NCBI GenBank assembly: GCA_026874595.1
Contig: CM049319.1
Span: forward strand, 67,793,917 to 67,857,916
Length of the DNA: 64,000 nucleotides
Direction of reading: 5' to 3'
Origin: Sipunculus nudus
Taxonomy: Eukaryota > Annelida > Sipuncula > Golfingiida > Sipunculidae
Positions within the stretch are counted from its first letter, which is position 1; each line of letters opens with the position of its first letter. Position numbers and translations under genes: made by a program. The notes under the pieces were generated by a model, which was not told the origin of the DNA, made no database searches, and worked only from the letters and a program-made list of their open reading frames with translations. Positions 34,063 through 61,800 of this stretch are shown one piece after another.

Positions 34063-34067
<5 letters not shown>

Positions 34068-34581: not shown

Positions 34582-34623
<42 letters not shown>

Positions 34624-35845: not shown

Positions 35846-35888
<43 letters not shown>

Positions 35889-36610
35889 TGTTATGTATAA
35901 TCATTTAATGATAACATTTCATACGACATATTGTTTATAAAAGCATTTCATTGTTATTTTTACCTTCGAAGTGCCGCCTATCGGTGCCTGTTTAGTACCA
36001 ATCTTGAGCAGAGGTCGAAAAGTCGAAATGTTTAAGGTACTGGGACATCTTCTGGGACATAGGGGGGGGGCACAGGTGGTCGGGATTGTATCACGAGAAG
36101 TTATGTATATATTGATATATCTTGTACCTTATATGCATACAGATGCATATATCTATATACATATACATACATAAATATTATATATAATCGACGTATAATA
36201 ATTTCTCATACGACACTTTTGTTATAAATATGTCCACTGTTATTCCAAGCGCCGCCCATTGGTGCCTGTTTGGTACTTTTATCTATAATGTATGCATCTA
36301 TAAATACATTAATATTTTGTAAAGAAACATTAAAAATGACATATCATACGACCAAATGCTACAAATATAGTCTTATAGTCCAAGGGCCGCCAATCGGCGC
36401 TGGTCCAGTATGTGTAAATGTCTAGTCACTGGGTCATTACATGCGACATTATGAAGGGCTCCAGTGCGTGGGGGATGTAAGGATATGTCGAAATGTCTAG
36501 TCACTAGGACATTTTCTGCGACATTTCTAGAGGCTACATGTACGTTAGGGAGTATGAGCCCGAATATAGCGCCCCCTGTCGGCAACCGTTTCGTGCAGTT
36601 ATACAACACG

Positions 36611-38859: not shown

Positions 38860-38908
38860 ACGGAAGCGTATCACTGCCACCTGCTAAAAGAAAAATAAAT
38901 TATTTATC

Positions 38909-39075
38909 TCGTACGTACGACATAGTATCTCGTACGTACGACATACTATCTCGTACGTACGACATACTATCTCGTACGTACGACATATTATCTCGTACGT
39001 ACGACATATTATCTCGTACGTACGACATATTATCTCGTACGTACGACATACTATCTCGTACGTACGACATTAAAA
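38909..39075. repeat. 21-bp subterminal repeat array, about 8 units
   Basis: The unit TATCTCGTACGTACGACATA plus one base (C, T or G) is repeated about eight times without indels. Each unit contains the 12-bp perfect palindrome TCGTACGTACGA. Because 21 is a multiple of three, it translates as a 7-residue MSYVRDN/S repeat, which is a by-product. The position next to an element end suggests a protein-binding or end-recognition role, but that is inference. Confidence 0.93.
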
Positions 39076-40713: not shown

Positions 40714-40793
40714 GTCGTACGTACGAGATAATATGTCGTACGTACGAGATATTATGTCGTACTTACGAGATACTATGTCGTTCGTACGAGATA
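40714..40793. repeat. 21-bp subterminal repeat array, inverted, 4 units
   Basis: This has the same repeat as the left end of copy A but in the opposite orientation (ATGTCGTACGTACGAGATA), about four units. Two have single-base changes that break the palindrome (GTACTTACG, GTTCGTACG). It sits just inside the right end of copy A. Confidence 0.92.
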
Positions 40794-40837
40794 AATAATT
40801 TATTTATCTTTTACTAGGTGGCAGCAATACGCTTCCG

Positions 40838-40840
<3 letters not shown>

Positions 40841-40893
<53 letters not shown>
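40841..40893. repeat. TA microsatellite at element junction
   Basis: A TA run of about 52 bases immediately follows the right end of copy A. After it comes a partial right-arm fragment of the same family (ATTACTTATACATATATCAC, then a CGTACG motif) before copy B begins. Confidence 0.9.
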
Positions 40894-40895
<2 letters not shown>

Positions 40896-41041
40896 CTTAT
40901 ACATATATCACTTGGCCTTTTGTGTATCTGTGAATCAGATCCATCAGATTAATTATGTCGTACGTACGATATTAAATGTCGTAAGTATGATATACTACGG
41001 AAGCGTATTGCTGCCACCTAGTTAAAGAAAAATAAATTATT

Positions 41042-41251
41042 TATCTCGTACGTACGACATAGTATCTCGTACGTACGACATAGTATCTCGTACGTACGAC
41101 ATACTATCTCGTACGTACGACATATTATCTCGTACGTACGATATACTATCTCGTACGTACGACATATTATCTCGTTCGTACGACATAGTATCTCGTACGT
41201 ACGACATATTATCTCGTACGTACGACATACTATCTCGTACGTATGACATAA
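41042..41251. repeat. 21-bp subterminal repeat array, 10 units
   Basis: About ten tandem 21-bp units (TATCTCGTACGTACGACATA plus C/T/G) lie just inside the left end of copy B. Single-base variants include CGTACGATATA, CGTTCGTACG and GTATGACAT. Indel-free phase keeps a minus-strand frame open for 70 residues, which has no meaning beyond the repeat. Confidence 0.93.
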
Positions 41252-42331
41252 TAAATCTTACGGATCTGTTTCACAGACTACAAAACAGACCAACTGATAT
41301 ATGTATAAGTAATATATATATATATATATGTTAAATAATGTATGTTCTCCACCTCCTAGCAAACAGTTTGAACACCGTTGAAACGAACGTATATATATTT
41401 ATTTATTTATTTATATATACTATATATTTAAATGCTATTCGATTATATCATTTTTCTGTGTCTGGGTTTCTAAAAATATTTCAAGGAAGCGAAATATATC
41501 AAGTCGTTGTCTGCAGGTCATATACAGAACTTTTATTTTTAGATAGATGATTAAATTCTGTTGGCAGCGTATGATGTTAAAATGATGGGCCTGTCATAGT
41601 ATTAATAAAAAATATTGCCTTTGCCAAATTGAAAACAAGAGGACAGCTACCAAATAGCCTAATTTTAAGTGTTTGAGTATTATACAGTTTTCTAATATTC
41701 ATAATTGATCAAGCACTCGTTTCATAATTAACATAGGAATCATTAACCTCTCCTTATTGCCATCTTTGTATTACAGACACCTCTATAAGTGACACTTAAG
41801 GTTGATATTCATTTGCAGTAATATGTGTATTGTTTCACGTTATTAACTCATTTTGGCTGAAAACTAAAGTTGTCCAGCAAATCCATGCCGACACATGAGC
41901 TTAATATCTCCTGGTTATATACGTTGTCATGGTTCTGTCTGTGAGTTAACACTGTCCTCGTGTGTCTGTTTACCATTACATGACCCCTTGACTAGAGGCA
42001 AGATCTTAGTTGAGCACAAGTGAAAATTATAAAAAAAAGAACAAACATGAAAAAAGAAACACCCGGAGAAGCTAGAAAACCTTGATTTGTAAAGTTGGGT
42101 TGTACATCCAACAGGTCGCGTGATCGCTGTTTGTTTTTCATCATTCATCGCACCCGTGGCAAGCCTTTTTCCACTTGCGTAACGGATTTAGCAAACGGTT
42201 TTAGAACGAAATATTGAAAGATACCGTAATATTTGAGGAGACTACACTGTATTTTATATATACTTAATATACCTGGTATGTGAAAGGTAAATAGGTTCAC
42301 TCTTCACGGATTTTAATCTAGTCTACAATCC

Positions 42332-42335
<4 letters not shown>

Positions 42336-42410
<75 letters not shown>

Positions 42411-42412
42411 AG
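42336..42412. repeat. CT then TA microsatellite
   Basis: A CT run (about 42,336-42,367) is followed by TA-rich repeats interrupted by TG. It lies at the inner end of the left arm of the internal inverted repeat, the same CT-to-TA arrangement seen beside the foldback element at 33,977. Confidence 0.88.
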
Positions 42413-42928
42413 TATGTATTTGTGTGTGTGTGAAAAGACTGAAAGCCTCGGGAGATATTAATGTCATTAGTAATACGTATAATGTCTGTCAGTTCTTGTT
42501 CTTGTTTGACAAGATAAAATATCCCACATGTGCAAGGGACACAGCTATGTTATTGTCACTTGCGAGGGACTCCTATGCTTAAATAGCAAATTGAATATGG
42601 AGATAGAATTTAGAAACGGGACTTTGCACAAGTGCCAATGTTCATCTGTTTCAAATGTGATGAAACAACTTTCCTTGATCTGATAGTAACTTCAAACATG
42701 AATACCTCTAGAAATAAACTCACTTTTATTAAAACACACATATATGTATATAGCCTTATTTTTAGCAATAGTCTGATTTATATACAATATGTATTGGTAG
42801 TGTGCCAATTAATCTGTTTAACCAATGATTGATCGCTACCTTTATAATCGATTAAATTCGTTACATATTTGTGTTCTTGTATATTTCCAACGGGATTAGA
42901 TTCTTTACATGTACACGCATAATCGTTT

Positions 42929-42929
<1 letters not shown>

Positions 42930-42984
<55 letters not shown>
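42930..42984. repeat. TA microsatellite
   Basis: A pure TA run of about 54 bases lies in the spacer of the internal inverted repeat. Confidence 0.9.
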
Positions 42985-42986
<2 letters not shown>

Positions 42987-43335
42987 ACAACAACCGCAAA
43001 GTTAATTGTTGAAAGGCCTCATGGCCCAAAGTACAAATAACTTAAGTAACATATAAATATACACAAGTTTGCCATCACTTTCTGCCAATATGTGCTTAAT
43101 CATGTTAAAAGATATATATGTTGTAGAAAAGAATTGCACTGATATACACAAATGAAAATATATATGTGTACAATTATCAATTATACATAAAATTACAGTA
43201 TTCAGTGAATTTAATGATTAAAGTACTACTTTATGGAATATTATTTTCTGAAATGTTTTCCTGTCTTACTCTGTTTACCTGAAATAAATATATTTATAAA
43301 ATATTGTTGTTGTTAAAACTATATATATATATATA

Positions 43336-43620
43336 CAGGGAAATCTTTCTAAAGTTGTGGCCTTGATGTTGTCCGGGGCGAGTGATCAATGTCCGCCGGA
43401 GATGGCTTATCTTGTCCGTATTTGTCAGGTTCATTTTCTCTTAGAATGTTCGTTTGAGTTGCAATCTGCTGTCCGTTGTCCGCAGTAGCGATCGAGGTGT
43501 CCGCCTTGTAGAGGTTCTGCTTATATACACAAATACGGAATTTCGAAGGGGCTCAATTCTCTTGTCCGTTATAGCCAGTCGTCCGCCTAAGTGAGGTGTC
43601 CGTTAGACCAGTTTTCACTG
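43336..43620. mobile_element. Pogo/Tc1-like MITE, about 285 bp
   Basis: The left end CAGGGAAATCTTTCTAA and the right end (reverse complement CAGTGAAAACTGGTCTAACG) are imperfect terminal inverted repeats, and both ends abut TA dinucleotides, the usual Tc1/mariner/pogo target. The interior is unusually rich in TGTCCG and GTCCGC motifs in the same orientation, ending with GAGGTGTCCGTTAGACC. There is no coding frame. Family assignment rests on the CAGT-type ends and TA flanks only, and the TA-rich surroundings make the target duplication ambiguous. Confidence 0.65.
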
Positions 43621-44545
43621 TATATATGAGTGAAAGAGCCGATTGTAGTAGAGAGTTTAAATCCACGAAAATTGGCTTCTAACGGGAACTATTTACATTT
43701 CACATACATGGTATATTAGGTATACATGAAATACAGTGTAGTCTTCTTAAAGTTTACCGTATCTGTCAATATTTCGTTCTAAAACCGATTGCTAAATCCG
43801 TTACACAAGTTGAAAAGAGCTTGCCCTGGGCGCAATCAACGACGAAAAACAAACACAGCGCTCACGCCACTTGGTGGTGGTACAGCCCAACTTCACAAAT
43901 CAAGGGTTTTCAAGTTTCTCGCGGTGTTTATACATTCATGTTTGTTCTCTTTTTCATAATTGACCCGACCAAGATCTTTCCTCTGATCACGAGGTCTTGT
44001 AATGGTAAACAGACACACCTTTACTGTATTTACTCACACACAAAACCATGACAACGTATAAAACTGGTTAACAGAAGATATTAAACCCGAAATATTTTTC
44101 TGTCACAAATTGATCGCATGTCCATGCGTGATAGTTTTTAATTATTTTTTTTTATCATTATTTATTTCAAAATGAAAATGGGTTGTTTACTGTTCAGCTA
44201 CCCACTAATCATGTATCAATGGCTGTATACGCATTCAATATTTTAAACGATCCACTGCACTGTGCGTTATATCATAAATCTAGTTCCTAGACAAATCGAT
44301 TAAGAATATTAGAAACCTGCCCCACAAATATCCTTTCTCAAACACTTACAGTCAGGCTGTTTGGTATCTGTAACTCTTGTCCGAACCTTTCTTCTCCAAA
44401 AAATAGTTTCAATTTGGCAAAGGCAATATTTCTTTTATCATCATTATGACAGGTTCCCTATTATAACACCATACGCAACAAAATTTAATCACCTATCTAA
44501 AAATGAGAGTTCTGTGTATGACTGGTAGACAATGTAGATTATATG

Positions 44546-44645
44546 TCGTACGTACGAGATAATATGTCATACGTACGAGATACTATGTCGTACGTACGAG
44601 ATAAAATGTCGTACGTACGAGATACTATGTCGTACGTACGAGATA
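44546..44645. repeat. 21-bp repeat array, right arm of copy B
   Basis: About five units of ATGTCGTACGTACGAGATA with one or two extra bases sit in the inverted orientation. They are followed by the conserved TTATTTTTCTTTTACTAGG and the element end at 44,690. Confidence 0.92.
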
Positions 44646-44696
44646 AATCATTTATTTTTCTTTTACTAGGTGGCAGCAATACGCTTCCGTAATATA

Positions 44697-44875
44697 CTAT
44701 GTTGTACGTAGGAGATATAATGTCGTACGAACGAGATAGGATGTCGTACGAACGAGATAGTACTATTTCGTACGTACGAGTTAGTATGTCGTACGTGCGA
44801 GATAATATATGTCGTACATACGAGATACTATGTCAATTTATTTATCTTTTACCAGGTGGCAGCAATACGCTTCCG

Positions 44876-44876
<1 letters not shown>
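44697..44876. repeat. Second right-end module with diverged 21-bp units
   Basis: This is a repeat of the right-end architecture: about six diverged CGTACG units (including CGTACGAACGAG and CGTACGTGCGAG), then TTTATCTTTTACCAGGTGG and the element end. It lies directly after the end at 44,690, so it looks like a tandemly duplicated or nested element terminus. Confidence 0.8.

Positions 44877-44877
<1 letters not shown>

Positions 44878-44921
<44 letters not shown>
44878..44921. repeat. TA microsatellite at element junction
   Basis: A TA run separates the second and third right-end modules. It stands in the same relation to the element end as the TA run at 40,841. Confidence 0.9.
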
Positions 44922-44925
<4 letters not shown>

Positions 44926-45241
44926 CTTATACATATATCAGTTGGCCTTTTGTGCATCTGTGAATCAGATCCATGATATTAATTATGTCGTACGTACGAT
45001 ATTAAATGTCGTACGTACGATATACTTTGTTGTACGTACGAGATATTATGTCGTACGAACGAGATATAATGTCGTACGAACGAGATAGGATGTCCTACGA
45101 ACGAGATAGTATTTCGTACGTACGAGTTAGTATGTCGTACGTACGAGATAATATATGTCGTACGTACGAGATAATATGTCGTATACGTACGAGATAAATA
45201 ATTTATTTTTCTTTTACCAGGTGGCAGCAATACGCTTCCGT
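44922..45241. repeat. Third right-end module with 21-bp units
   Basis: This module starts with TTACTTATACATATATCAGT and GATCCATGATATTAATTATG, then about nine CGTACG-type units in the inverted orientation, then TTTTACCAGGTGGCAGCAAT and the element end at 45,241. It closely resembles the fragment at 40,894-40,996 in its first half. Confidence 0.8.
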
Positions 45242-45648
45242 AAGTTTGTGTGATTTGGTTAAAAAAAATATTGGCTCATCTGTGAGCACTCAGCCCGGCA
45301 GTGACATAAACCAAGAGGAAAACGCCTGTCGGTAAAAATTCGTTCTCATCAAAATCTTAGTATTTTTCACACTGTCGGCCCCTATTCTCAGGAATTAATG
45401 AAAACAACATGTATGTCTAGATTTAAGTCTTTCCTAAATTTTGCCTTTGACGTCACACGTTTCCACCAGCCGATCACATAGCGGCCCAGCCTCTGTTCTA
45501 GATACAAACCCACGTTCTCTAACGTTAACCTAACCTTAATAAAAAGGAGGATAAAATAGATGAAGACTGAATACTAGCAAGCCAAAATAGAATAATGTTA
45601 AATGATAACACCTGCTAATATCATATTGTTAAAAAAGAACTGGAAGGT
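45242..45648. other. Intergenic DNA, nothing recognised
   Basis: Ordinary AT-rich sequence between the foldback element and a MITE-like element. I see no open frame of note and no RNA-like structure. Confidence 0.5.
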
Positions 45649-45930
45649 AAAAAAAGGTATGTTCTCAGGCACCGCCCGAGTAATTTTTAACCCCCTGCAT
45701 CAAAAATGTTTATTTTGATTTTCATCTTTATGAAGATTGAATAATACAATTTTGATAAGGTTTCCTTTGTTATGTAGTGCTTTTACCTGTTTAGCAAAAA
45801 AAAATCTGTTATTATCATACCTTTCCCAGATCATATGACATATTTAAATAAAAATACAAAAGAGGTAAAAAAAAAACGCCCGCCCGCAATGATATCTGAA
45901 TAAAACTGCCTGAGAACCATACCTTTTTTT
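45649..45930. mobile_element. MITE-like element with 23-bp terminal inverted repeats
   Basis: AAAAAAAGGTATGTTCTCAG followed by GCA at the left (45,649-45,671) matches, with a one-base indel, the reverse complement of the right end (TGCCTGAGAACCATACCTTT at 45,907-45,930). GCCCGCC-type blocks lie inside both ends. It is about 282 bp with no coding frame. No clear target-site duplication is visible, because both flanks are A- or T-rich. Confidence 0.6.
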
Positions 45931-46931
45931 GGCCTACTTAGGATATATATTCTTTTATTTTAGTTGATATATTTAAAAAAAATGGGGGAAAAAACGGGCA
46001 TCTCATCAATATTGTGTCCAAATTTGTTAAATATGGTATAGTTTTACTTTCATGGTGATTTGTGTCACAGGAACCGGCAAGAATTTCTTACATGCGAAAA
46101 TTTAACATCTGGGGTGTCATAATGTTGGGTGTGTTTACGGTAAGACTAGACTGTGTTTAAATTTACACATCTCCCAGACATACGAGTACAATTAAACATT
46201 TTTTGAAAGAGATCTGAGTATAAAGTATAATTATATTTATCCAAAATGGTTTATAAGGAGTCTTGTCACAATTTAAATTTTATATTTATATTTATATTTT
46301 ATATATTAAGACATATTTATATATTAAAAATCGTGATGATTGCTTGTTTCAGAGATCTATTTATTTATCAGGTGTATCTAATAAATTGTTATATATTAAA
46401 AGTAAAATAACCTTACTATGTTACTGTGAAAGATATGTAAAACATAACCCTATCGTTTTGTTTAAATTTATTTTGAGGCGTTTTTGCCCTGGCCTTTGCA
46501 AAGACACTACTCTCCGGCAATTATCCCTGCAGCTAAAACTTCATTTAACCTCGGCATCATCTCTGTGATAACCTGATAAAAAAAGGAGTACTGTCCGACT
46601 CCCCTGCTTTTCTCATCACAACGATGCCAACAATTCTGTAGGAATGCAAAGAGGAGAGCTTATCATTGAGATACTTCTACAAAAGAAACTGCATCAAGAT
46701 GTGTTGTTGTGGTGAAAGTACATTTATGTAATTGACTCTGAGATCAAATGACTCATGAGAGAGTGTTTGCTAAATATATTACATATATATATATATACAA
46801 TTGTTCTTTCTAGTCTGTTTGCAATGCACTGATGGAAAAGTGCTCGATGGTATAACCAGAGCGTATAAATATATATATCATGTGTAAGGAACCAAAAGAT
46901 TGAAATTGATATATATATATTTATATATATA

Positions 46932-46987
<56 letters not shown>

Positions 46988-47230
46988 AGATTGTCTTTAT
47001 GGGCACATGAAATATGGTAAACATTTATTTCATTAATTGTAATAATTTTGTTCGGTCATTATATGAAAGTGTGATATATTATTTATTTTGGTAAAATATA
47101 AAGAATTAACAAAATTTACTTTCGGTTTAGCAAATATTGAAAAATAACATATGTTATAACAACTTCGATTCAGCGACGGTACATATACATATACATTTGG
47201 GATCAGGTTGGTCCACATTTAATAAGAGAG
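45931..47230. other. Intergenic DNA upstream of the odd-skipped family gene
   Basis: No gene is recognised. A plus-strand frame at 46,263-46,568 (101 codons) has no known motif. TA microsatellites are present at about 46,945-46,985. Regulatory sequence for the downstream gene could lie here but cannot be read directly. Confidence 0.45.
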
Positions 47231-47235
47231 AGCGA

Positions 47236-47480
47236 TGACGTCATGATATGTACATGCCGTGTAATGCACGGATATGTCCGGTTCCTGTCCATCTCAAGGT
47301 CACATGATCAAGGGGCGTGGCTCAGGAAAAGCTGGTTGTCAGTTTACACAGGTAACCAATCGGATTGCCGCAATCAGTCATACCTTAGATATAACCTTTA
47401 ACGTCTTATCTCTGTGGGGGTGCTTATTGATAAATGCTTTATAAATGCTTATAAAGTGGCGTTTAGCATACCTGGCTGAA
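47236..47480 (+). promoter_or_regulatory. osr: Candidate promoter of the odd-skipped family gene
   Basis: In order it holds a consensus CRE TGACGTCA (47,236-47,243), an NR5A/ERR-type site TCAAGGTCA (47,294-47,302), a GC/CACCC-type box GGGGCGTGG (47,312-47,320), and two TATA-like boxes, TATAAAT (47,440) and TATAAAG (47,450). These are followed within 45 bases by a good 5' splice site. The arrangement fits a TATA promoter with a start near 47,475-47,485. The sites are seen. Their use is inferred. Confidence 0.5.
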
Positions 47481-47572
47481 GTCATTTGGCGAGGTAAGCG
47501 TTGCTATTCGTCCCGTTGAAGATCCTGGTGTGCGAGACAGTTATCAAGTTTACACCAACCGTGTAATCTGAG
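47480..47572 (+). other. osr: Candidate 5' untranslated exon 1
   Basis: The first coding exon begins at an acceptor only three bases upstream of its ATG, so an upstream non-coding exon is needed. Two donors fit: GAG|GTAAGC at 47,494 and GAG|GTTAGT at 47,573, both shortly downstream of the TATA boxes. The exact start site and donor cannot be decided from sequence. Confidence 0.4.
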
Positions 47573-48219
47573 GTTAGTATTTTATCAGACAGTTTGGACG
47601 GGTTATCACATAAAAGAAAACCATGTATAAATAAATTTGGTATCTCTAATAGACAAAGTTTATACCGAACTGTAGTTATCGATTATCATTATCATGGACA
47701 CGCATCATATAGGTTACTTTTGAATGATATTATTGTATAATTTATCTATAAGTTGTTAATGACATGAGTTTTCAGGAGCAAATAGCAGTATTACCCGTAA
47801 ATTTTATCATGCCATACTGGGGAATAGTGATACATTCTATAGTCATAATAAGAAATGATGTATTGATAATAATTCACACTCAGAAACTTTTAAAACTAAA
47901 CAAATGAACGAGTTTTTTTACTACACCACGACACGGATAAATATCATTCAAAATTAAATTTCGAATGCATAATGAAATTCTTCTTTAAATGTGAATGAAA
48001 ACTTCTTTTCTTGTATGGTCTAAAATTTATCCTTTTGATGTGTGTTTAGCCAGAATAAAATCAATATGTATATATGAGAATTTGTGCAATAGTGGACATA
48101 TAAATGCAGTATTAAGTCCAGTCTAAAAAACAACAGGAGGTACATGAAAAATACAGACTTGAATTTGGACCAGAGGAAATTTAAGAAACATACAAGTGTT
48201 TTATCTTTTCCTTCAGGAA

Positions 48220-48614
48220 ATGTCTGCTCCCTTTACGGACTATCTCTACTACCCCGCGCAGGATCCGGCATCCTATGCGTATTTGCGCTCATTGACCCAG
48301 CCGGTTGTAGATAGCTGGATCTTTTTTTCTCGATATGGATCTTATCATAATCAGATATATACGACTTTGTTGGCGGAAAAGCGACACAATGCGGACAGAG
48401 TGAAAACTAAAGAACTTAGCAGCAGTGTAAGCAGGCCGTATAGCGGCCAGTCTGTAAAACACGGAGAAACTCATCCCACCGATGATCCAGTCACGACGAG
48501 GCCGAAGTGTGAAGAACAAAATATTAACAAGTTTGACTTCCACCATCTTGCCGAATCAATACTTGCAGAACAAGAAGAAAAAAGACAAGAAAAGCAAAAG
48601 GAAGGAACAGAGAG
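48220..48614 (+). CDS. osr: osr coding exon 1 (N-terminal region)
   Basis: The exon opens after a strong acceptor (TTTTATCTTTTCCTTCAG, ending 48,216). The ATG at 48,220 has G at -3. It codes for residues 1-131 plus two bases of codon 132. The N-terminus is tyrosine-rich (DYLYYP), the middle is serine/threonine-rich, and the end is a charged helix-like [12 protein letters not shown]. The donor is GAGAG|GTGAGA at 48,615. Reading through it would hit TGA at 48,616. The last ~14 exon bases and the donor are the seed of the 62-bp array that follows. Confidence 0.9.
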
Positions 48615-51600
48615 GTGAGAAGCAAAGTCTCCGCCTTCACACACTTAAAGGGTTTAGGATATAAAGAAACAGAGAGGTGAGAAGCAAAGTCTCCGCCTTC
48701 ACACACTTTAAGTGGTTAGGATATAAAGAAACAGAGAGGTAAGAAGCAAAGTCTCCGCCTTCACACACTTTAAGGGGTTAGGATATAAAGAAACAGAGAG
48801 GTGAGAAGCAAAGTCTCCGCCTTCACACACTTTAAGGGGTTAGGATATAAAGAAACAGAGAGGTGAGAAGCAAAGTCTCCGCCTTCACACACTTTAAGTG
48901 GTTAGGATATAAAGAAACAGAGAGATAAGAAGCAAAGTCTCCGCCTTCACACACTTTAAGGGGTTAGGATATAAAGAAACAGAGAGGTGAGAAGCAAAGT
49001 CTCCGCCTTCACACACTTTAAGGGGTTAGGATATAAAGAAACAGAGAGGTGAGAAGCAAAGTCTCCGCCTTCACACACTTTAAGGGGTTAGGATATAAAG
49101 AAACAGAGATGTAAGAAGCAAAGTCTCCGCCTTCACACACTTAAAGGGTTTAGGATATAAAGAAACAGAGAGGTGAGAAGCAAAGTCTCCGCCTTCACAC
49201 ACTTTAAGTGGTTAGGATATAAAGAAACAGAGAGGTAAGAAGCAAAGTCTCCGCCTTCACACACTTTAAGGGGTTAGGATATAAAGAAACAGAGAGGTGA
49301 GAAGCAAAGTCTCCGCCTTCACACACTTTAAGGGGTTAGGATATAAAGAAACAGAGAGGTGAGAAGCAAAGTCTCCGCCTTCACACACTTTAAGTGGTTA
49401 GGATATAAAGAAACAGAGAGATAAGAAGCAAAGTCTCCGCCTTCACACACTTTAAGGGGTTAGGATATAAAGAAACAGAGAGGTGAGAAGCAAAGTCTCC
49501 GCCTTCACACACTTTAAGGGGTTAGGATATAAAGAAACAGAGAGGTGAGAAGCAAAGTCTCCGCCTTCACACACTTTAAGGGGTTAGGATATAAAGAAAC
49601 AGAGAGGTGAGAAGCAAAGTCTCCGCCTTCACTCACTTTAAGGGGTTAGGATATAAAGAAACAGAGAGGTGAGAAGCAAAGTCTCCGCCTTCACACACTT
49701 TAAGGGGTTAGGATATAAAGAAACAGAGAGGTGAGAAGCAAAGTCTCCGCCTTCACACACTTTAAGGGGTTAGGATATAAAGAAACAGAGAGGTGAGAAG
49801 CAAAGTCTCCGCCCTCACACACTTTAAGGGGTTAGGATATAAAGAAACAGAGAGGTGAGAAGCAAAGTCTCCGCCTTCACACACTTTAAGGGGTTAGGAT
49901 ATAAAGAAACAGAGAGGTGAGAAGCAAAGTCTCCGCCCTCACACACTTTAAGGGGTTAGGATATAAAGAAACAGAGAGGTGAGAAGCAAAGTCTCCGCCC
50001 TCACACACTTTAAGGGTTTAGGATATAAAGAAACAGAGAGGTGAGAAGCAAAGTCTCCGCCTTCACACACTTTAAGGGGTTAGGATATAAAGAAACAGAG
50101 AGGTAAGAAGCAAAGTCTCCGCCTTCACATACTTTAAGGGGTTAGGATATAAAGAAACAGAGAGGTGAGAAGCAAAGTCTCCGCCTTCACACACTTTAAG
50201 GGGTTAGGATATAAAGAAACAGAGAGGTGAGAAGCAAAGTCTCCGCCCTTACACACTTTAAGGGGTTAGGATATAAAGAAACAGAGAGGTGAGAAGCAAA
50301 GTCTCCGCCCTTACATACTTTAAGGGGTTAGGATATAAAGAAACAGAGAGGTGAGAAGCAAAGTCTCCGCCTTCACACACTTTAAGGGGTTAGGATATAA
50401 AGAAACAGAGAGGTGAGAAGCAAAGTCTCCGCCTTCACACACATTAAGGGGTTAGATTATAAAGAAACAGAGAGGTGAGAAGCAAAGTCTCCGCCTTCAC
50501 ACACTTTAAGGGGTTAGGATATAAAGAAACAGAGAGGTGAGAAGCAAAGTCTCCGCCTTCACACACTTTAAGGGGTTAGGATATAAAGAAACAGAGAGGT
50601 GAGAAGCAAAGTCTCCGCCTTCACACACTTTAAGGGGTTTGGATATAAAGAAACAGAGAGGTGAGAAGCAAAGTCTCCGCCTTCACACACTTTAAGGGGT
50701 TAGGATATAAAGAAACAGAGAGGTGAGAAGCAAAGTCTCCGCCCTCACACACTTTAAGGGGTTAGGATATAAAGAAACAGAGAGGTGAGAAGCAAAGTCT
50801 CCGCCTTCACACACTTTAAGGGGTTAGGATATAAAGAAACAGAGAGGTGAGAAGCAAAGTCTCCGCCCTCACACACTTTAAGGGGTTAGGATATAAAGAA
50901 ACAGAGAGGTGAGAAGCAAAGTCTCCGCCCTCACACACTTTAAGGGTTTAGGATATAAAGAAACAGAGAGGTGAGAAGCAAAGTCTCCGCCTTCACACAC
51001 TTTAAGGGGTTAGGATATAAAGAAACAGAGAGGTAAGAAGCAAAGTCTCCGCCTTCACATACTTTAAGGGGTTAGGATATAAAGAAACAGAGAGGTGAGA
51101 AGCAAAGTCTCCGCCTTCACACACTTTAAGGGGTTAGGATATAAAGAAACAGAGAGGTGAGAAGCAAAGTCTCCGCCCTTACACACTTTAAGGGGTTAGG
51201 ATATAAAGAAACAGAGAGGTGAGAAGCAAAGTCTCCGCCCTTACACACTTTAAGGGGTTAGGATATAAAGAAACAGAGAGGTGAGAAGCAAAGTCTCCGC
51301 CTTCACACACTTTAAGGGGTTAGGATATAAAGAAACAGAAAGGTGAGAAGCAAAGTCTCCGCCTTCACACACATTAAGGGGTTAGATTATAAAGAAACAG
51401 AGAGGTGAGAAGCAAAGTCTCCGCCTTCACACACTTTAAGGGGTTAGGATATAAAGAAACAGAGAGGCGAGAAGCAAAGTCTCCGCCTTCACACACTTTA
51501 AGGGTTTTTTGTTTTTCTTATTTAGGATATTTGTATTTAACCTGTGATTACATATGTGAGTGTATATGCGTGAAAATAATCTCACATTTGACTACACATA

Positions 51601-54251
51601 TTGTTCCAATGTGTCCGTCAGCGTATATGCGTATGTCCTTACACTCGAAAAAATCGCCACAGGAATGAATTTTACGCATAGGGTCTGGCATGGCATTACG
51701 CAGGTAATCCCGGTAAAATTTTTTTTGAAGATCTGCCTAATACACTTTAACACTGCATACTTCTAAATTCAAGTAAGCTGTAAAATTTAGAAAGGTATAT
51801 TAATTATAGATTTCTTCCTGGCTACATGATGGTTCCATGGCACTTCAAAGATGAAGCTACTGTTTGCCATTGTGACTTAACTTTGTTACTTTTACTTATT
51901 GTCTATGGAAATATTTCTCTGTTGTTGTTTGGGAGATGTAATACAACACATTTTACAATATATCAATACATTACTTCTACTGGTGTTCTTCTATAGTGTT
52001 TCATGATTATAATATATGTGAAAGAATAAATGAGAAAATTATGAATAATGTTGATAAAAGTGACGGACTTTTAAAAGGAGTGAAACGACAGCATTTATTT
52101 TAAGCTTAAATGAAATTGTTTACATGAACCTCTTCCGTACAGATAGCAACCGACGGTCTGTTGCGTCGCCGGCTCACCAAAGGGTTAATAGGGATTATAG
52201 CACGAAACGACCTGTTACTCTAAGAAACTAAATTTAATTAAATTAAATTAATTTAATTAAGTATTTCCTGTGGTTGTAACATACCGATGGTCACATTACG
52301 TTGTATTTTGAAAGGTGTGTAATAAATTCTGGACAGCATAAAGCACCTGTAGAGCATCAATAACTGATTTATTTGTTCAAGAGAGGAATGAAGTATATAC
52401 AGCCCGGTAGCCATCTTATATTTGACGGCGAAGCTGTATAATACATCAGGTCTGTGTACATTATGTACATATTTTAACTTCCTTGTTGCAAAATAGTGCT
52501 GCGAATCTGACTGTAATGTTTTTCAATGGTCAAATATCCAGTACCAGACATGTACTGACCATTAATCAATGTAAATATGTTAAATCGCACAGTTGTATAG
52601 GGAGTGTTATAATCATAGGGAACTGCAGGTGCCATCTATGGACTCCACATTGCGCCAGGCACTAAAAAAAGCAATAGAGGAGTCCATTCTTTTAGCCTAC
52701 TTTAATGACTGCTATCACTTTTATCTGTGCAGTAAGAAAAATATCCGACCAAGTGGCTCGGAGCATCAATCACACGAGATTAATACCATCAAAACCATCC
52801 TCAAGTAAGACCATTTCTGAATATGGAATTATCTAATTAATATGGGCTGCTACAGTCTTTATTAGAATATAGCAAGAAAGAATCAACGTATTCATTGAAT
52901 TGTATGGAGTTATATTCACACAAGCGAGATAGACGGTGATGTAACTATGTAGTGTCGTATTGTTTGTTCCTTATTTACATAATCATCAATATATCAAGAA
53001 AAACAGGACGGGAGGAATATTGAATACAAGTGATTTATATTTCAGGTTTTAACCACTTAATCTAGATATAACTGGATATGTTAAAAGATATAGTGACATT
53101 GTGTATACATTAAGGAGTGACATTTCCAACAAATCAATAGCAGAAAATGATATATAACCTTTCATATGTAGTAACTGTCACTTGATATTTTATCCTTTAT
53201 CTGTGTTCAAGTACAGACACTGGTGTCACGTAATAAGTACAAATAATTAACAACAAAATGCCCGTACCACGCCAGCAGATTACTTTAGATTTATTAAGTT
53301 ACTTTCATTAAGGTGTATTTATTTTCATATTAAGATCTAAATTGAAGTGGCGTTACACTTGTCGACACTGCCAGCGAGACTTCAGTAAATCTTACAACCT
53401 GTTAATACACGAGAGGACCCACACTGACGAGCGCCCGTTCTCGTGTGATATCTGTGGTAAAGCCTTCCGACGACGAGATCATCTCCGAGATCACAGGTAA
53501 TCACCGGATGTGACGTCATACATTCACCCAAATACCACCTCTAGTGGCAGGAATCGGTTGTAAAATCATATTCGATGACTGAAAGATAAAAAAAGAGCGA
53601 TGATCGATAATTAATTTGGTATTTTATGTACCACCTATATAACCGTGAAATCAGCTGTATTGAATTAGACCAAAAATATTGACCGAGTTAATTCAGTCAG
53701 TAGTACATCACGCTAAATAGTCATGGTAATGGCCAGTTTGTTGACACTTATTCAATGCACAAGGTTAAGTAATTATGTTGTTCGCTGTTTTTTTCCTGTG
53801 GTTGTTATATATCTCTGACAGAATCAGAATATTTTATCGGGATGATAAGATTTCTTCCCGTCTGCATACATAATCGATTGTAATCGATTATGCAAATGCA
53901 ATTGATCTAATCGAGTATGAAAGAAAACGACCAATCATTGATGTAATCGAACATTACATTGGCCCACCACTAGTTGCCTCCCTTTTCCCTAATATTTTGT
54001 ATGATTTAATTCAGGTTTTTCTTAGGAGGTGATTTTCTGTGACCGCCACCCTTTAACTGCCTTATTTTCTATTTTATCCGTCTTCGTTTTTTTTCCAAAA
54101 TTTTGACATATATCGTATAAATGGTTCCTCATTTGATTTAACATATTTCTATGATAAAAACCTATTCAGTTATATTTGTTACCATACACGAAATATCAAT
54201 TTATTCTGTAGGTCTTTCTGTCTGTCTTTCTGTCTGCCTGCCTGTCTATCA

Positions 54252-54299
<48 letters not shown>

Positions 54300-55727
54300 G
54301 ACTGAGATAATTGACTTGTAAATCTTAGATATTTTATCTGTTTATCTTAAGCGTAAGGAAAATTTTGACTGATCAAATATACAACAAAATTCTGTTAACA
54401 ATTACTCGCATGGTTCATGCATACCCCACGTGGTATATCGGCATGCCCGCTTATATTAAAAATACAAATTCGCTTGATTTTTAGATTCATTAAGTCATGC
54501 CCACCTATATTAATGTAATGGTTTCAATTGAGATACAGTAAGTTATGCCTACCTACATCGGTGTAATGATTACATTATAGATAAATTAATTCATGTATAC
54601 CTATAGCTCTATAATACTTATATTTTAGATATATTCACGCTGAGCAGAAACCGTTTACGTGTGACGTGTGTGGAAAGGGATTCTGTCAATCACGAACCCT
54701 GACAGTACACAAGGCTACCCACGAGCAGGTGAGTGTGCTAACACACAAACACACACACCATCGCACACACATACACACTCAGCAGCCGCTGTACGTGAGA
54801 ACAGGTGAGAATATGACAAACTAAGAAAGCACACAAAAGTTCACATACATACACAAATACACACATTAAGCTGCCGCTGTCTGAGAGAACAGGTGTAAAT
54901 GTGACATCGTAAAAAAGGCCCACACACATACGTGCACCCACACCAACACGCACGCAAGTACATACACGCTGTCCATGGTGGTGCTTTTGCAATACTTAAG
55001 TATTTGCTGTGGGAATGCCTCTTCAAGAACAGTCAACTTTGTCTATAACCAAGAAAGGGAGCGAATAAAATATGTAATTGCCAATTAGGGTGGACCACGA
55101 TATATTTATTTAAGAAAGGTCTTCACCAGCAATCTGTTTATTCCTATTTGTGGTTGTGTTTTTGTCGATTGACGGGCTTTATGTAAAGCGTGTATTACTT
55201 AAAAGGTGTCCAAACCCTTTTTTTCCTTTGCTCTGTTTGTATTATTCCCATTTACTCCTACAATTATAATCAAGGATTCAAGCGACTGTGTTTAGCGTTA
55301 TATTCAAATTCATGTAACCGACACCAATAAAAAGAGAGTTTGACTGTACATTTCTGTAAAAGACCTGTCTACATATTTTGAAGCCTATGACCAATCCTTC
55401 CAATTAAACAGATTAAAGTTTGAGTGCGTATTTTAAAAGTATGGTAAGGTTCGCATGGCCTATTTCTGGCCAAGATCACCAAACTCCTCATATACCTACA
55501 ATATAGGTTGTATATATTATACGTTTTCATTGACCCATGGTATATTTTAAAGAACTTTTAAAATTTGTAACCCAGCGTTACTAGTCTTTATAACATTAAG
55601 TCTACACAGATATAAATGGACCACGTGTGAAGCGGTTAAAACCAAGAGACCAGGTGCATGAGAGACAGAAGCATTTTAATGTCACGGTTGATTCCTTACC
55701 ATGCAGTTGATCTGTGTTATATTGCAG

Positions 55728-55788
<61 letters not shown>

Positions 55789-56239
55789 GTATAATTTGAA
55801 TAATTATGAAAAGGATATTGAATAAAAATATGTAAAAGATCATAAATATCACAGAAATGAAAATCGTTTGCAAACTTATACCGGGGCAAATAATATGACA
55901 TTTAAGTAAATTCAATATTTTGATTGGTATTCATTGGTATTAAAGTGTTGTGTTTTTCGGTCTGTGATCGGTACAACATTTTAGAAAATATGAACTTCAA
56001 CAGTCTCCATATAAAATGCAAAACTGGGGATCAGCTAAGAGACGATAACTATTGCATTGATATATATATATTATAAATGTTACTTGATTTTTTTATAATT
56101 TCAGGGTCCGCCACATGAGTGTTCCCACTGCGGAAAAAAGTTTATCCAGAAATGTAGTCTGAAAGCCCATCTGAAAACACACGATATGAACTCCTTATTG
56201 GGACACAAGGACAGACCGGAAGTATCGAGGGCTTCCTGA
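48220..56239 (+). CDS. osr: Odd-skipped family (Odd/Osr) C2H2 zinc-finger transcription factor, spliced
   Basis: This is a nuclear DNA-binding regulator of the Odd-skipped/Osr family, which controls segmentation, gut, limb-joint and kidney-type development in animals. Join 48,220-48,614, 53,335-53,496, 54,629-54,728 and 56,105-56,239. All junctions are GT-AG and in phase, giving 263 residues. Residues 1-131 include the [11 protein letters not shown] motif (105-115), resembling the FDFANLA motif of Osr proteins, and a basic/acidic tail. Four fingers follow with exact C-X2-C-X12-H-X3-H spacing: C141/C144/H157/H161, C169/C172/H185/H189, C197/C200/H213/H217 and C225/C228/H241/H245. The stretches [16 protein letters not shown] and [18 protein letters not shown] are family diagnostic, although Osr/Odd usually have RRQDHL in finger 2. 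Four fingers match Drosophila Odd (vertebrate Osr1 has three). The C-terminus is short (18 residues after the last His). Confidence 0.95.
48601..51503 (+). repeat. 62-bp minisatellite of 47 units, each repeating the exon's 5' splice site
   Basis: The unit is AACAGAGAGGTGAGAAGCAA, AGTCTCCGCCTTCACACACT, TTAAGGGGTTAGGATATAAA, GA. The donor GTGAGA recurs exactly every 62 bases from 48,615 to 51,467 (46 intervals, no indels). Nearly all units keep GT. By eye, two have AT (48,925 and 49,421) and the last has GC. A few read GTAAGA. Higher-order copying is visible: an 8-unit (496-bp) block at the left (marker AAAGGGTTTAGG at 48,643 and 49,139) and a 15-unit (930-bp) block at the right (marker TTCACATACTTT near 50,125 and 51,055). 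The array begins inside the exon and lies in the 4.7-kb intron. Confidence 0.97.
51504..52592. other. Intron sequence after the minisatellite
   Basis: Immediately after the array, TTTTTTGTTTTTCTTATTTAG (51,505-51,525) looks like an acceptor, and the following GGATAT matches the array unit's own TTAGGATAT, so it probably preserves the ancestral right junction. Otherwise no exon is supported. Plus-strand frames at 51,405-51,766 have no recognised motif. Confidence 0.5.
52638..52804 (+). CDS. Possible alternative first coding exon of osr
   Basis: An ATG at 52,638 opens 55 codons ([19 protein letters not shown], then [16 protein letters not shown] and a polar tail) that end at a good donor, AA|GTAAGA (52,805), in phase 2. 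That is exactly the phase needed to join the zinc-finger exon at 53,335 (AA+A = Lys), which would give a 187-residue isoform with all four fingers and a different N-terminus. Joining from the upstream exon is only in frame through a weak acceptor at 52,600. No known domain is seen. It may be a chance open frame. Confidence 0.35.
53335..53496 (+). CDS. osr: osr coding exon 2 (zinc fingers 1 and most of 2)
   Basis: The acceptor ATTTTCATATTAAG ends at 53,334. The first base completes the codon AG|A (Arg132). It encodes residues 133-185, i.e. finger 1 and finger 2 up to its first zinc-binding His, ending CAC AG|GTAATC. Frame and phase agree with exon 1 without needing any intermediate exon. Confidence 0.95.
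53541..53973. mobile_element. hAT-like non-autonomous element in an osr intron
   Basis: The left end CTAGTGGCAGGAATCGGTTG and the right end (reverse complement CTAGTGGTGGGCCAATGTAA) share a CTAGTGG start. The interior has several ATCGATTA-type palindromic blocks near both ends (e.g. CATAATCGATTGTAATCGAT at 53,869). A similar end (TAGTGGTGGGAGTCGGTTCC) occurs at about 38,397. The 8-bp flanks do not match well, so the target duplication is doubtful. No coding frame. Confidence 0.5.
54211..54300. repeat. TCTG tetranucleotide microsatellite
   Basis: Tandem TCTG/TTCTG/CCTG repeats become a pure TCTG run and end in TCTCTCTC. It lies in the intron before coding exon 3. Tetranucleotide runs of this type accompany some mollusc mobile elements, but no element core is evident here. 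Confidence 0.9.
54629..54728 (+). CDS. osr: osr coding exon 3 (end of finger 2, finger 3)
   Basis: The acceptor TACTTATATTTTAG ends at 54,628. The first base completes AG|A (Arg186). It encodes residues 187-219: YIHAEQKPF, finger 3 ([21 protein letters not shown]) up to H217, and EQ. It ends in phase 0 at a consensus donor [17 protein letters not shown] is a signature of finger 3 in Odd/Osr proteins. Confidence 0.95.
54735..54965. repeat. CA-rich intronic sequence with an internal duplication
   Basis: Two related segments of about 110 bases, each CACACA-rich followed by GCCGCTGT, GAGAACAGGTG and TGTGACA-like sequence (about 54,782-54,812 and 54,871-54,905). The donor-like CAGGTGAG motif of the preceding exon is echoed near 54,803. 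Minus-strand cysteine/valine-rich frames here are translated CA repeats. Confidence 0.6.
55730..55779. repeat. TA microsatellite
   Basis: A TA run of about 50 bases in the last intron of the osr gene. Confidence 0.9.
56105..56239 (+). CDS. osr: osr last coding exon (finger 4 and C-terminus)
   Basis: The acceptor TTTTTTATAATTTCAG ends at 56,104. It encodes residues 220-263: GPPHE, finger 4 (C225, C228, H241, H245; [18 protein letters not shown]) and an 18-residue tail ending in SRAS before TGA at 56,237. Confidence 0.95.
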   Translation, partial: GPPHECSHCGKKFIQKCSLKAHLKTHDMNSLLGHKDRPEVSRAS

Positions 56240-56580
56240 GAGATCATTGGCTTCTTCGGAGATCACGTGACTTCAAGCAAGACCTTTTTATATCATTACA
56301 ATAGTTTTTTTTTTTGCGAACCGACAGAGAACATGAGACTGACGTTTCTGTATGTGTATGCCCTCCTACATTTTGGCGTTTTATGCCGACATACCTCCGA
56401 GTAACAACTTTGAAACTAATATTAGAGCTATCTGTTTAAAAAAATGGCTGACGTCTTATATATGAACTGTTTGTTATTCATTATGGAATGAGAACAATAT
56501 AACGCAATTCATTGAAAGCTATTTTGATAATATATCAAATTTTGTATGTTTTCACAATAAAGTATTCATATACTCGTATA
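56240..56580 (+). terminator. osr: osr 3' untranslated region with polyadenylation signal
   Basis: A canonical AATAAA lies at 56,556-56,561, about 320 bases after the stop codon, so cleavage is expected around 56,575-56,590. There is a run of ten T residues near 56,306. No other AATAAA lies between the stop and this one. Confidence 0.75.
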
Positions 56581-58842
56581 TTCATATGACTGCTTTATTT
56601 ATTTCAATATAATTTAATGACGTAATGAATGGATTTTGCATATATACCTCCGTATATCTGATAAATATCCAAGTTAGTGGACTACGTCTTTTCTCAGTTC
56701 GGTTTTTTTTTTATATAATCATACAATTAAACGTGTTCATTTTCATTTCCACCCTTACCCAAGGAATCAGATATTTAATCTTACCTAAAAAAATATACAT
56801 ATATGGCATATAGTAAAGATTGTGTTGTACAAATGATCATATATACACTTGTCATGTATATGAATAAACTAAAATAGACTACGGATGGTTGCATCATTTT
56901 TTTTTTTTTTTTTTGCTGTGAAGAAATGAAAGCATGTAAACATGGTATATCTGCATAATTTTTTAGTGCACAAGTAAAATTACATTCTAAAAGAGTGTGT
57001 ACTGATATCAGAGTGAACATAGGAGCAGACACGCTGAATACCTCTGTAACAACATTAACCATCTATTTCTACCGGTAGCTTGATATATACAGGTGTTTGC
57101 TCCCGGATTACTACAGAGAGGTCCACATACAAATCAGCAGTTTATGAACTAATGAGATTTACTGGGTGTCCAGCCGAGCCGGCCAAACGAAGGCCACTTG
57201 GATGAGATCTGGAAAAGATTTATGGTATTGATCCACAGACCCTGACAGCAAGGCACTCCATGTAAACAATAGTGGGTTATAAAGCTGTAGGGGGACTTAA
57301 TTTATTAGTCATATTCAATAAGCTGGACGCTGGGCAGTAAATATGAAAGCAAGATATCATTGTTTAATTTACAGACTTCCGGACTCTCTGGCCTGACCGG
57401 TATCACGTCTTTTATTGCCGGAAATTTGTAAATTTAAATATTAAGCTTTTTCTCAGAATACGTAAATCTTTATGCCACAAACACGATTGCTCTGTTGGCT
57501 TCCAGCATTCTTTACTCAAAGGAAATGTCCACTTTAACCAATATAGAACAACCCACTTTGTCCAGCAATAAAGATGCCAAATAGAAATTCAATAAATCAC
57601 AAATAAAAATGGTCGACAAAGATAACATAGCCAAACATTAACAAATGTTGGAATACTTTAGCCAAACATTAACAAATTTTGGAATACTTTACTTCTTTTT
57701 ATTTAAAGTACGTCAGTAATCTGTCGAAAAATCTAATGATACAAAAGAGCCATAGCTTGCAAATATAACAGTCAAAACTCCGATTCAGTAATTTTGTGGT
57801 TTCGCCTGTATTAGTTTCAAGTTACTCCTACAGAGTCTAACATTTTCGGGGTTTTTTTCCTGCTACTTTTGATTATATTTATATATGTGTTATGGTCCTC
57901 TAGAACATGTCCACTAAAGTAAAGTCAGTTAGTACTGAGTATTTGTGTTCTGTAAATCGAAATGTAGGTTCTTTAATTATAAATGTGAAAATTCATACTA
58001 AACTCCAACCTCCTGCCGGAGCCCAGGCTTATGTCTGATTCCACGTCACAAGGCCAGCTCATATGACCAGATCACATGATCACATGACCAGATCAATACA
58101 GACTATCATTATACGAATAATCAAATTTCTAGTGAAAAAAAAATCTGATTCTCTTCCATGTTAAACTGTTAACAGATCTGTTTCTCGGAAGTAATGCCCC
58201 GCCAAAATTTGCAGGTGATTGTTTCGAATGGCATCGTTGTTTCAAACCAATATATTCATATTTATGTGAAGAAAATTATAGCGAATATAAATTTGACTGT
58301 TCCATTGAGAAACCTAGTCAGGGGTTAACCACTAGTACGCTGTTGTAAGAGTTAATATATCAAAAGCTACTCAGCGTCATTCCGGAGACACGTGACCGTG
58401 TAAGCTGGAGTCTGCCGTTTGAGAACGATCAGTAAATATTGCAGGTAGTTATAACTCAGGGGATGCTTCTGGAAGACTAAATCTGATTCTTAGGAACAAA
58501 GGCAGCAGTTAATAAACCTGTAGTAGTAAGTTTGGCGGGGATCGTAGAGATTATTGTGGGAGCACCACCCCATGTCACCTGACTGTAGAGCTCAGCCCGC
58601 GGCTTATATACCCCCCCCCCCTGTATTGACGCCACTGCCATTGGCTCTTTTGTTGGCCTTTTGTCTTAGGAACATGTCTTCGTTGATAGGAGTAGCCAGT
58701 GATTTATAAATAGGCGTTCACCTTTAGTGTTGGCATTTCAACGTGTGTTTTTATTGAAATACTTTTCACTTTTAATTTCGAAAGATTGGTCCATAACCTT
58801 GTCCTGCTCTGCAACTAAAAAAGTGGTAGAGTTTTTCTAAAA
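56581..58842. other. Intergenic DNA, no gene recognised
   Basis: AT-rich single-copy-looking sequence. Open frames at 56,625-57,062 have no motif. Small features are a poly-T run near 56,897, a C-run near 58,611, and GATCACATGATCACATGACC near 58,070. No promoter, exon or RNA could be supported. Confidence 0.5.
57629..57690. repeat. 31-bp tandem duplication
   Basis: AGCCAAACATTAACAAATGT followed by TGGAATACTTT occurs twice head to tail, differing by one base (ATGTT/ATTTT). Confidence 0.95.
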
Positions 58843-61800
58843 GACCCTGTAAGACGAACCCTGTATGACATACCCTGTATGACATACCCTGTATGACATA
58901 CCCTGTATGACATACCCCGTATGACATACCCTGTATGACATACCCTGTAAGACGAACCCTGTATGACATACCCTGTTTGACATACCCTGTATGACAGATC
59001 CTGTAAGATGAAACCTGTATGACAGATCCTGTAAGACGAACCCTGTATGACATACCCTGTATGACATACCCTGTATGACAGATCCTGTAAGACGAACCCT
59101 GTATGACATAACCCGTATGACATACCCTGTATGACAGATCCTGTAAGACGAACCCTATATGACATACCCTGTAAGACGAACCCTGTATGACATACCCCGT
59201 ATGACATACCCTGTATGACAGATCCTGTAAGACGAACCCTGTATGACATACCCTGTAAGACAAACCCTGTATGACATACCCTGTATGACATACCCTGTAT
59301 GACAGATCCTGTAAGACGAACCCTGTATGACATACCCTGTAAGATGAACCCTGTATGACATACCCTGTATGACATACCCTGTATGACAGATCCTGTAAGA
59401 CGAACCCTGTATGACATACCCTGTAAGACGAACCCTGTATGACATACCCTGTATGACATACCCTGTATGACAGATCCTGTAAGACGAACCCTGTATGACA
59501 TACCCTGTAAGACGAACCCTGTATGACATACCCCGTATGACATACCCTGTATGACAGATCCTGTAAGACGAACCCTGTATGACATACCCTGTAAGACGAA
59601 CCCTGTATGACATACCCTGTATGACATACCCTGTATGACAGATCCTGTAAGACGAACCCTGTATGACATACCCTGTAAGACGAACCCTGTATGACATACC
59701 CTGTATGACATACCCTGTATGACAGATCCTGTAAGACGAACCCTGTATGACATACCCTGTAAGACGAACCCTGTATGACATACCCCGTATGACATACCCT
59801 GTATGACAGATCCTGTAAGACGAACCCTGTATGACATACCCTGTATGACATACCCTGTATGACAGATCCTGTAAGACGAACCCTGTATGACATACCCTGT
59901 AAGACGAACCCTGTATGACATACCCTGGATGACATACCCTGTATGACAGATCCTGTAAGACGAACCCTGTATGACATACCCTGTATGACATACCCTGTAT
60001 GACATACCCTGTATGACTGATCGTGTAAGACGAACCCTGTATGACATACCCTGTAAGACGAACCCTGTATGACATACCACGTATGACATACCCTGTATGA
60101 CAGATCCTGTAAGACGAACCCTGTATGACATACCCTGTATGGCAGATCCTGTAAGACGAACCCTGTATGACATATCCTGTATGACATACCCTGTATGACA
60201 GATCCTGTAAGACGAACCCTGTATGACATACCCTGTATGACATACCCTGTATGACAGATCCTGTAAGACGAACCCTGTATGACATACCCTGTAAGACGAA
60301 CCCTGTATGACATACCCTGTATGACAGATCCTGTAAGACGAACTCTGTATGACATACCCTGTATGACAAACCCTGTATGACAGATCCTGTAAGACGAACC
60401 CTGTATGACATACCCTGTATGACATACCCTGTATGACAGAACCTGTAAGACGATTCCTGTATGACATATCCTGTATGACATACCCTGTATGACAGATCCT
60501 GTAAGACGAACCCTGTATGACATACCCTGTATGACAGATCCTGTAAGACGAACCCTGTATGACATACCCTGTATGACATACCCTGTATGACAGATCCTGT
60601 AAGACGAACCCTGTATGACATACCCTGTATGACATACCCTGTATGACAGATCCTGTAAGACGAACCCTGTATGACATACCCTGTATGATATACCCTGGAT
60701 GACAGATCCTGTAAGACGAACCCTGTATGACATACCCTGTATGACATACCCTGTATGACAGATCCTGTAAGACGAACCCTGTATGACAAACCCTGTATGA
60801 CATACCCTGTATGACAGATCCTGTAAGACGAACCCTGTATGACATACCCTGTATGACATACCCTGTATGACAGATCCTGTAAGACGAACCCTGTATGACA
60901 TACCCTGTATGACATACCCTGTATGACAGATCCTGTAAGACGAACCCTGTATGACATATCCTGTATGACATATCCTGTAAGACGAACCCTGTATGACATA
61001 CCCTGTATGACATACCCTGTATGACAGATCCTGTAAGACGAACCCTGTATGACAGACCCTGTATGACAGACCCTGTAAGACGAACCCTGTATGACAGACC
61101 CTGTGTGACAGACCCTGTAAGACGAACCCTGTATGACAGACCCTGTATGACCGACCCTGTAAGACGGACCCTGTATGACAGACCCTGTATGACAGACCCT
61201 GTTAGACAGACCCTGTATTACGGACCCTGTGTGACAGACACTGTATGACCGACCCTGTATGACAGACCCTGTTAGACAGACCCTGTAAGACGGACCCTGT
61301 GTGACAGACCCTGTGTGACCGACCCTGTATGACAGACCCTGTAAGACAGACCCTGTATGACTGACCCCGTATGACGGACCCTGTATGACATATCCTGTTT
61401 GACGGACCCTGTATTACGGAAATTTGTAGGACACACCCTGTTTGACAGACCCTGTATTACGGACCCTGTAAGACATATCCTGTTAAACAGACCCTGTATG
61501 ACAGACCCTGTATGACAGACCCTGTATGACAGACCCTGTATCACGGACCCTGTATGACATACCCTGTATGACCGACCCTGTATGACAGACCCTGTATGAC
61601 AGAACCTGTATGACAGACCCTGTATGACATACCCTGTATGACAGACCCTGTATGACAGACCCTGGGTGACCGACTCTGTATGACAGACCCTGTATGAGAG
61701 ACCCTGTTTGACAGACCCTGTATAACGGACCCTGTAAGACATATCCTGTTAAACAGATCCTGTATGCCAGACCCTGTATTACGGACCCTGTAAGACATAT

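Follow-up and report, generated by a model that had tools for sequence, protein, structure and literature searches.

Analysis of a 64,000-nucleotide stretch of Sipunculus nudus contig CM049319.1 (the window) revealed a tandem array of 47 copies of a 62-bp unit within an intron of an odd-skipped-related (osr) zinc-finger gene, in which the last bases of the first coding exon and its 5' splice site (the donor) are copied from unit to unit. We assign a probability of about 0.78 to the explanation that this array is a young minisatellite of the type called a "mirage" in amphioxus, lying across an exon-intron boundary, tolerated by splicing and near-neutral. The evidence for this reading comprises the homology between array and exon, recent block duplication within the array, the lack of visible constraint on the copied donors, the three copies without a GT, the predicted pairing of the donors, and the amphioxus precedent. 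The features at the centre of the analysis are as follows.

48220 to 48614, plus strand: coding part of the first coding exon of the osr gene, ending in phase 2 at AACAGAGAG (from the open frame, the in-phase join to the finger exons and the acceptor score).
48602 to 48614, plus strand: exon tail of 13 bases, 12 of which are the same in the unit consensus.
48606 to 51504, plus strand: tandem array of the 62-bp unit, 46 full copies and one partial (from Tandem Repeats Finder and a unit-by-unit layout).
48615 to 48620, plus strand: donor 1, GTGAGA, the sole donor of the 47 that leaves the reading frame intact.
48677 to 51472, plus strand: the 46 later donor positions (units 2 to 47), 43 of them with GT, all 46 predicted to give a 132-amino-acid product when joined to the finger exons.

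The array is highly regular. Tandem Repeats Finder reported a period of 62 with 46.8 copies, 97% matches and 0% indels between 48602 and 51504, and the unit-by-unit layout resolved 46 complete copies from 48606, again without indels, followed by a partial unit 47 whose first 50 bases match with two changes before it diverges, a T-rich tract beginning at 51505. The original prediction of 47 indel-free copies of a 62-base unit at this place held, except that the last unit's GGG stops at 51504 and not at 51503. Full copies are 98.4% identical to the consensus: 46 variants occur among their 2852 bases, the units fall into 15 types, and 20 of the 46 equal the consensus exactly; unit 1 differs from it at 2 of 62 positions, and both of its changes recur in unit 9. 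Block copies within the array are near-identical: a shift of 8 units aligns 492 bp without a difference, and a shift of 15 units leaves 4 differences in 1010 bp. Such block duplications are the expected product of slippage, or of unequal exchange, while a minisatellite is young, and length polymorphism would be predicted from them. An assembly artefact is possible with a single sequence, though the many phased variants make a simple one less likely. We also noted a polar pattern across 48606 to 51504, with variants mostly differing between the first 16 units and the later ones; position 12 A and position 48 T are common to both. A coding repeat on either strand was rejected from the six-frame stop counts over the array, which contains at least 44 stops in every frame and no open stretch longer than 58 codons.

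Each unit corresponds to the ~13 bases that end the osr coding exon, the donor and the ~49 bases with which the intron opens. The exon tail matches the unit consensus at 12 of 13 positions, no other place in the coding exon matches at more than 9, and the best ungapped match to the unit outside the array, over the whole window, is 30 of 62. Because of this tail match and the lack of any copy of the unit elsewhere in the window, we conclude that the exon end and the array units are homologous, as the original prediction had claimed. A 23-base core of the unit had no match in the viral_contigs or genome_contigs collections, as expected for animal sequence. It is plausible that the exon seeded the array. 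At the far end, the partial last unit continues as GGG-TTTTTTGTTTTTCTTAT-TTAGGATAT and the array units read GGG-TTTAGGATAT or GGGGTTAGGATAT; the founder unit may have had a T-rich tract that was later lost, or the flank may have gained one.

The splice scores used here come from approximate frequency tables rather than from MaxEntScan, and background GTs and AGs were taken from 29400 to 48000 and 51530 to 58800, which exclude the large satellites of the window but still contain small repeats. By this measure donor 1 scores 10.85, a value that only 4 of 1568 plus-strand background GTs equal or exceed and that no GT in the 77-bp or 14-bp satellites of the window reaches on either strand. No exonic donor near it in score could replace it, the best being 5.6 at 48427, and the finger-exon donor at 53497 (CAGGTAATC) scores 7.37. 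GT is retained in 44 of 47 copies, in agreement with the earlier estimate of about 44 copies in a good context: the 9-mer GAGGTGAGA occurs in 38 copies (donor 1 and 37 others), the GTAAG-type GAGGTAAGA in four (units 3, 11, 25 and 40), AAGGTGAGA in unit 45, the weaker GATGTAAGA in unit 9, the dead GAGATAAGA in units 6 and 14, and GAGGCGAGA in unit 47. Donors at least as strong as donor 1 reach a density of 13.1 per kb in the array, compared with 0.11 per kb on the plus strand of 29400 to 48000, and the calculated duplex with U1 RNA has an energy of −9.6 to −9.7 kcal/mol in 43 of 47 copies.

Despite this wealth of donors, only donor 1 would be productive, as had been predicted: use of any of the 46 later ones would yield the 132-amino-acid product, which lacks the zinc fingers and, in the six translations inspected, ends in KEGTER. 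We found no sign of constraint on the copied donors, with 4 of 9 donor positions variable compared with 11 of 53 other unit positions (Fisher p = 0.20), a comparison of low power in which inherited variants are not independent. Variation is thus no rarer at the donor positions than over the remainder of the unit, and the suggestion that the array is a U1 sink or an evolved decoy gained no positive evidence.

The RNA of each unit is predicted to pair GAGGUGAGA with UCUC.CGCCUU, covering the unit's own donor. Of all 62 9-mers in a consensus array, that of the donor has the highest predicted pairing (0.91), compared with 0.62 ± 0.15 in dinucleotide-shuffled units; 3 of 200 of these shuffles were as high, and none of 150 mononucleotide shuffles was. 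This test was chosen after the hairpin had been seen. In a 1500-nucleotide fold containing the first 17 of the 47 donors, donor 1 was paired at 0.67, 11 of the 16 later donors at 0.85 to 0.91 and unit 14 at 0.73. In 300-nucleotide windows donor 1, at 0.62, resembled 60 randomly chosen GTs (median 0.62), and a sample of 11 array donors gave a median of 0.86. With the GTAAG variant in the consensus context, donor pairing drops to 0.54, making units 3, 11, 25 and 40 the likeliest decoys to be used. We regard predicted masking of this kind as a possible reason why the array is tolerated, rather than as a selected feature.

The original prediction also raised the possibility of micro-exons, bracketed by the TTAG of one unit and the next donor, and the acceptor side does not bear this out. 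TTAG is retained in 45 of 46 units but lacks a polypyrimidine tract; its acceptor scores run from −9.9 to −4.8, and 32% of the 1201 background AGs score at least as high as the best of them. Inclusion of one, two or three micro-exons would in each case lead to a stop after GTERI. Recursive-splicing (ratchet) sites were likewise rejected: the 44 GAGAG ends in the array, 41 of them directly followed by GT, are purine-rich 5' of the AG and score −20.6 at best. A higher-scoring acceptor lies just beyond the array.

51505 to 51525, plus strand: T-rich tract ending in TTTAG, with a higher acceptor score than any other of the 510 AGs that lie, inside and outside the array, between 48620 and 53340.
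51526 to 51555, plus strand: hypothetical 30-nucleotide poison exon, followed by GTGAGT, with an in-frame TGA and a 138-amino-acid product.

This acceptor scores 6.6 and ends 21 bases past the array, whose units contain no such T-rich stretch; it is possible that it opens the poison exon. The real finger acceptor scores −4.0 and ranks only 69th among the same 510 AGs, a rank showing that a simple acceptor score has little power to decide.

The host gene is completed by three further coding exons.

53335 to 53496, plus strand: coding exon 2, zinc fingers 1 and 2.
54629 to 54728, plus strand: coding exon 3, zinc finger 3.
56105 to 56239, plus strand: coding exon 4, fourth C2H2 finger and stop codon.

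The frame from 48220, with the donor at 48614/48615 in phase 2, gives a spliced product of 263 amino acids with C2H2 fingers, and the frame and spliced translation confirmed the proposed start of the finger exon at 53335 and its phase-2 join. The exon at 48220 to 48614 is the first coding exon, as proposed, and is probably internal rather than the first of the gene, because a strong-scoring acceptor ends at 48216, 3 bases 5' of the ATG, suggesting a non-coding exon upstream. PDB entry 2ee8 (odd-skipped-related 2) aligned with the finger block in one stretch over residues 1 to 87 of 87 (141.5 bits) and with a shorter finger query over 1 to 59 of 60 (105.5 bits). Five zinc-finger sequences with the 87-residue query, and six with the 60-residue query, ranked above it through sums over many repeated stretches; the best single stretch of these many-finger proteins, in five alignments with the 60-residue query, was 49.1 bits. 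Pfam assigned generic C2H2 models only to the block, and the gene has the odd-skipped-type C2H2 finger block expected of an odd-skipped-related transcription factor.

Comparison with published systems places the array closest to the amphioxus mirages. These are described as spanning exon-intron boundaries in Adh3, the globins BflGb6 and BflGb9, TnC and PGBD5, with units of 10-72 bp in Adh3, of 60 and 108 bp in PGBD5 and of 150-160 bp in the globins; many of the units, though not all, carry AG/GT signals, length is variable and splicing is reportedly undisturbed (PMC3087553, PMC3902484). In the same accounts, BflGb6 haplotypes carry 6 and 3 copies and repeat the acceptor side, and BflGb9 repeats the donor side (PMC3087553, PMC3902484); it has also been proposed that new introns could arise from mirages (PMC3087553). 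Like the mirages as described there, the osr units span the exon-intron boundary (12 of 13 exon bases, donor and intron), have a length of 62 bp that falls within the range of about 10-160 bp, are near-identical and carry splice signals in many but not all copies (GT in 44 of 47). The osr array differs from BflGb6 in having 47 copies and in repeating the donor side, as BflGb9 does. By its sequence, the osr array counts as a further mirage, and a long one.

Two other systems offer partial parallels. Repeat units of the human IFI6 (6-16) minisatellite are reported to act as splice donors, and use of the downstream ones to generate three mRNA species (Turri et al. 1995, via PMC4526556). The osr units similarly carry donors, in our case predicted from sequence, but unlike the downstream donors described for IFI6 the later osr donors would truncate the protein. 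The IFI6 unit is said to be 12 bp long. Tandem duplication of AGGT segments is described as a route to new introns, with a multi-copy 24-bp case cited from fission yeast (PMC4974935), and in human genes variable tandem repeats lying at exon-intron boundaries are reported as an intron source (PMC2812944). The duplicated osr segment also contains AG/GT; in contrast to the cases described there, it spans an existing junction inside an existing intron, and a new intron is not predicted. Literature searches returned no precedent beyond mirages, IFI6 and AGGT duplication.

We propose that a 62-bp segment of exon end, donor and intron start, for which the exon would have been the seed, was multiplied to 47 copies through tandem duplication and duplication of whole blocks; the structure and the block duplications are seen directly. 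Donor 1 would be chosen by exon context: of all the donors it is the only one next to the long exon, which would be defined from its acceptor at 48216, and for this reason it is most likely still used. The copied donors would be passive decoys, their rare use producing a truncated reading frame and a transcript that is probably degraded, and pairing of GAGGUGAGA within the same or with a neighbouring unit may add to their concealment. The array would then be near-neutral and should be length-polymorphic. Simple tolerance, the last alternative offered by the original prediction, is in our view the most likely.

Several observations weigh against this explanation. Donor 1 shares its 9-mer with 37 other copies, and the bases that follow it are almost those of the other units, leaving no reason within the site for it to win, and in duplicated-donor experiments (by Eperon in 1993, and later ones) the donor nearest the acceptor is said to be sometimes favoured. 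In the 1500-nucleotide fold, units 3, 6, 9 and 11 (0.40 to 0.60) were more open than donor 1, and two of these, units 3 and 11, are strong GTAAG donors. No compensatory changes in the donor stem occur among the array variants, and a stem pair is broken by position 12 in 7 units and by position 31 in 10, the latter change reducing donor pairing only to 0.87. Overall stability is also ordinary, with 153 of 200 shuffles folding at least as well as a single unit (z 0.68) and 128 of 150 at least as well as an 8-unit array. A selected RNA structure was rejected on these grounds, the unit being no more stable than its shuffles and its stem variants uncompensated.

Alternatively, the array could be a regulatory decoy, in which the copied donors and the acceptor behind the array compete with the productive junction and osr dosage depends on array length by way of truncated or degraded transcripts. 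The 38 donors sharing one 9-mer, the GT in 44 of 47 copies, truncation by all 46 later donors and the placement of the top intron acceptor, at 51525, right after the array while the real one ranks 69th are consistent with such competition. We nonetheless consider it unlikely, as the donor positions lack visible constraint (at low power), the acceptor ranking depends on an approximate frequency table and the published mirages are reported to produce no aberrant mRNAs (PMC3087553, PMC3902484). Decidedly doubtful, too, is a length-tunable dosage control in which the number of copies determines, through donor competition, what share of the transcripts is truncated and degraded; here most copied donors would be hidden by own-unit pairing, the four GTAAG copies (3, 11, 25 and 40) being exempt, and the targets would be the finger exon or the acceptor behind the array.

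The density of strong donors (13.1 compared with 0.11 per kb) and their uniform duplex energies in 43 of 47 copies could also suggest a platform for the U1 small nuclear ribonucleoprotein (snRNP), acting locally through less premature polyadenylation, more transcription or nuclear retention, or acting as a cellular U1 sink. Predicted pairing covers most of the donors examined and the copies show no visible constraint, making such a platform very improbable. U1 is present at about a million copies per cell, and 44 sites in the transcript of one regulatory gene are too few to titrate it, rendering a cellular sink implausible. It is equally improbable that an independent satellite landed here and supplied the donor, the exon end deriving from the repeat. 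One of the 13 shared bases differs between exon and units and a single genome does not reveal the direction of copying, but the unit has no match elsewhere in the window (30 of 62 at best) and runs across the splice junction of an exon whose reading frame continues in phase into the finger exons.

The window contains other repeats. Upstream of the osr gene, ~29 kb (4 to 29180) consist of a 77-bp satellite that also shows longer periods of 154, 231 and 304 bp. A 21-bp near-palindromic unit (TATCTCGTACGTACGACATAC) forms five arrays in both orientations (38905-39070, 40711-40794, 41042-41250, 44536-44834 and 44984-45197), four of which lie in frames with a common KRKIN- or RKIN-like stretch alongside; these arrays are perhaps part of a dispersed element. 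From 58842 to 64000, a 14-bp unit (AGACCCTGTATGAC) is arrayed with a 56-bp period and keeps open a minus-strand frame of 809 codons (58772 to 61201), which is probably no gene.

In sum, the array is striking yet probably near-neutral; its origin looks ordinary, and it adds a long case to the mirage class. It also constitutes a natural experiment on how a 5' splice site is selected when dozens of identical ones are on offer and nothing but their position sets them apart, in the setting of a developmental regulator, osr, where any wrong choice of donor removes the DNA-binding domain.
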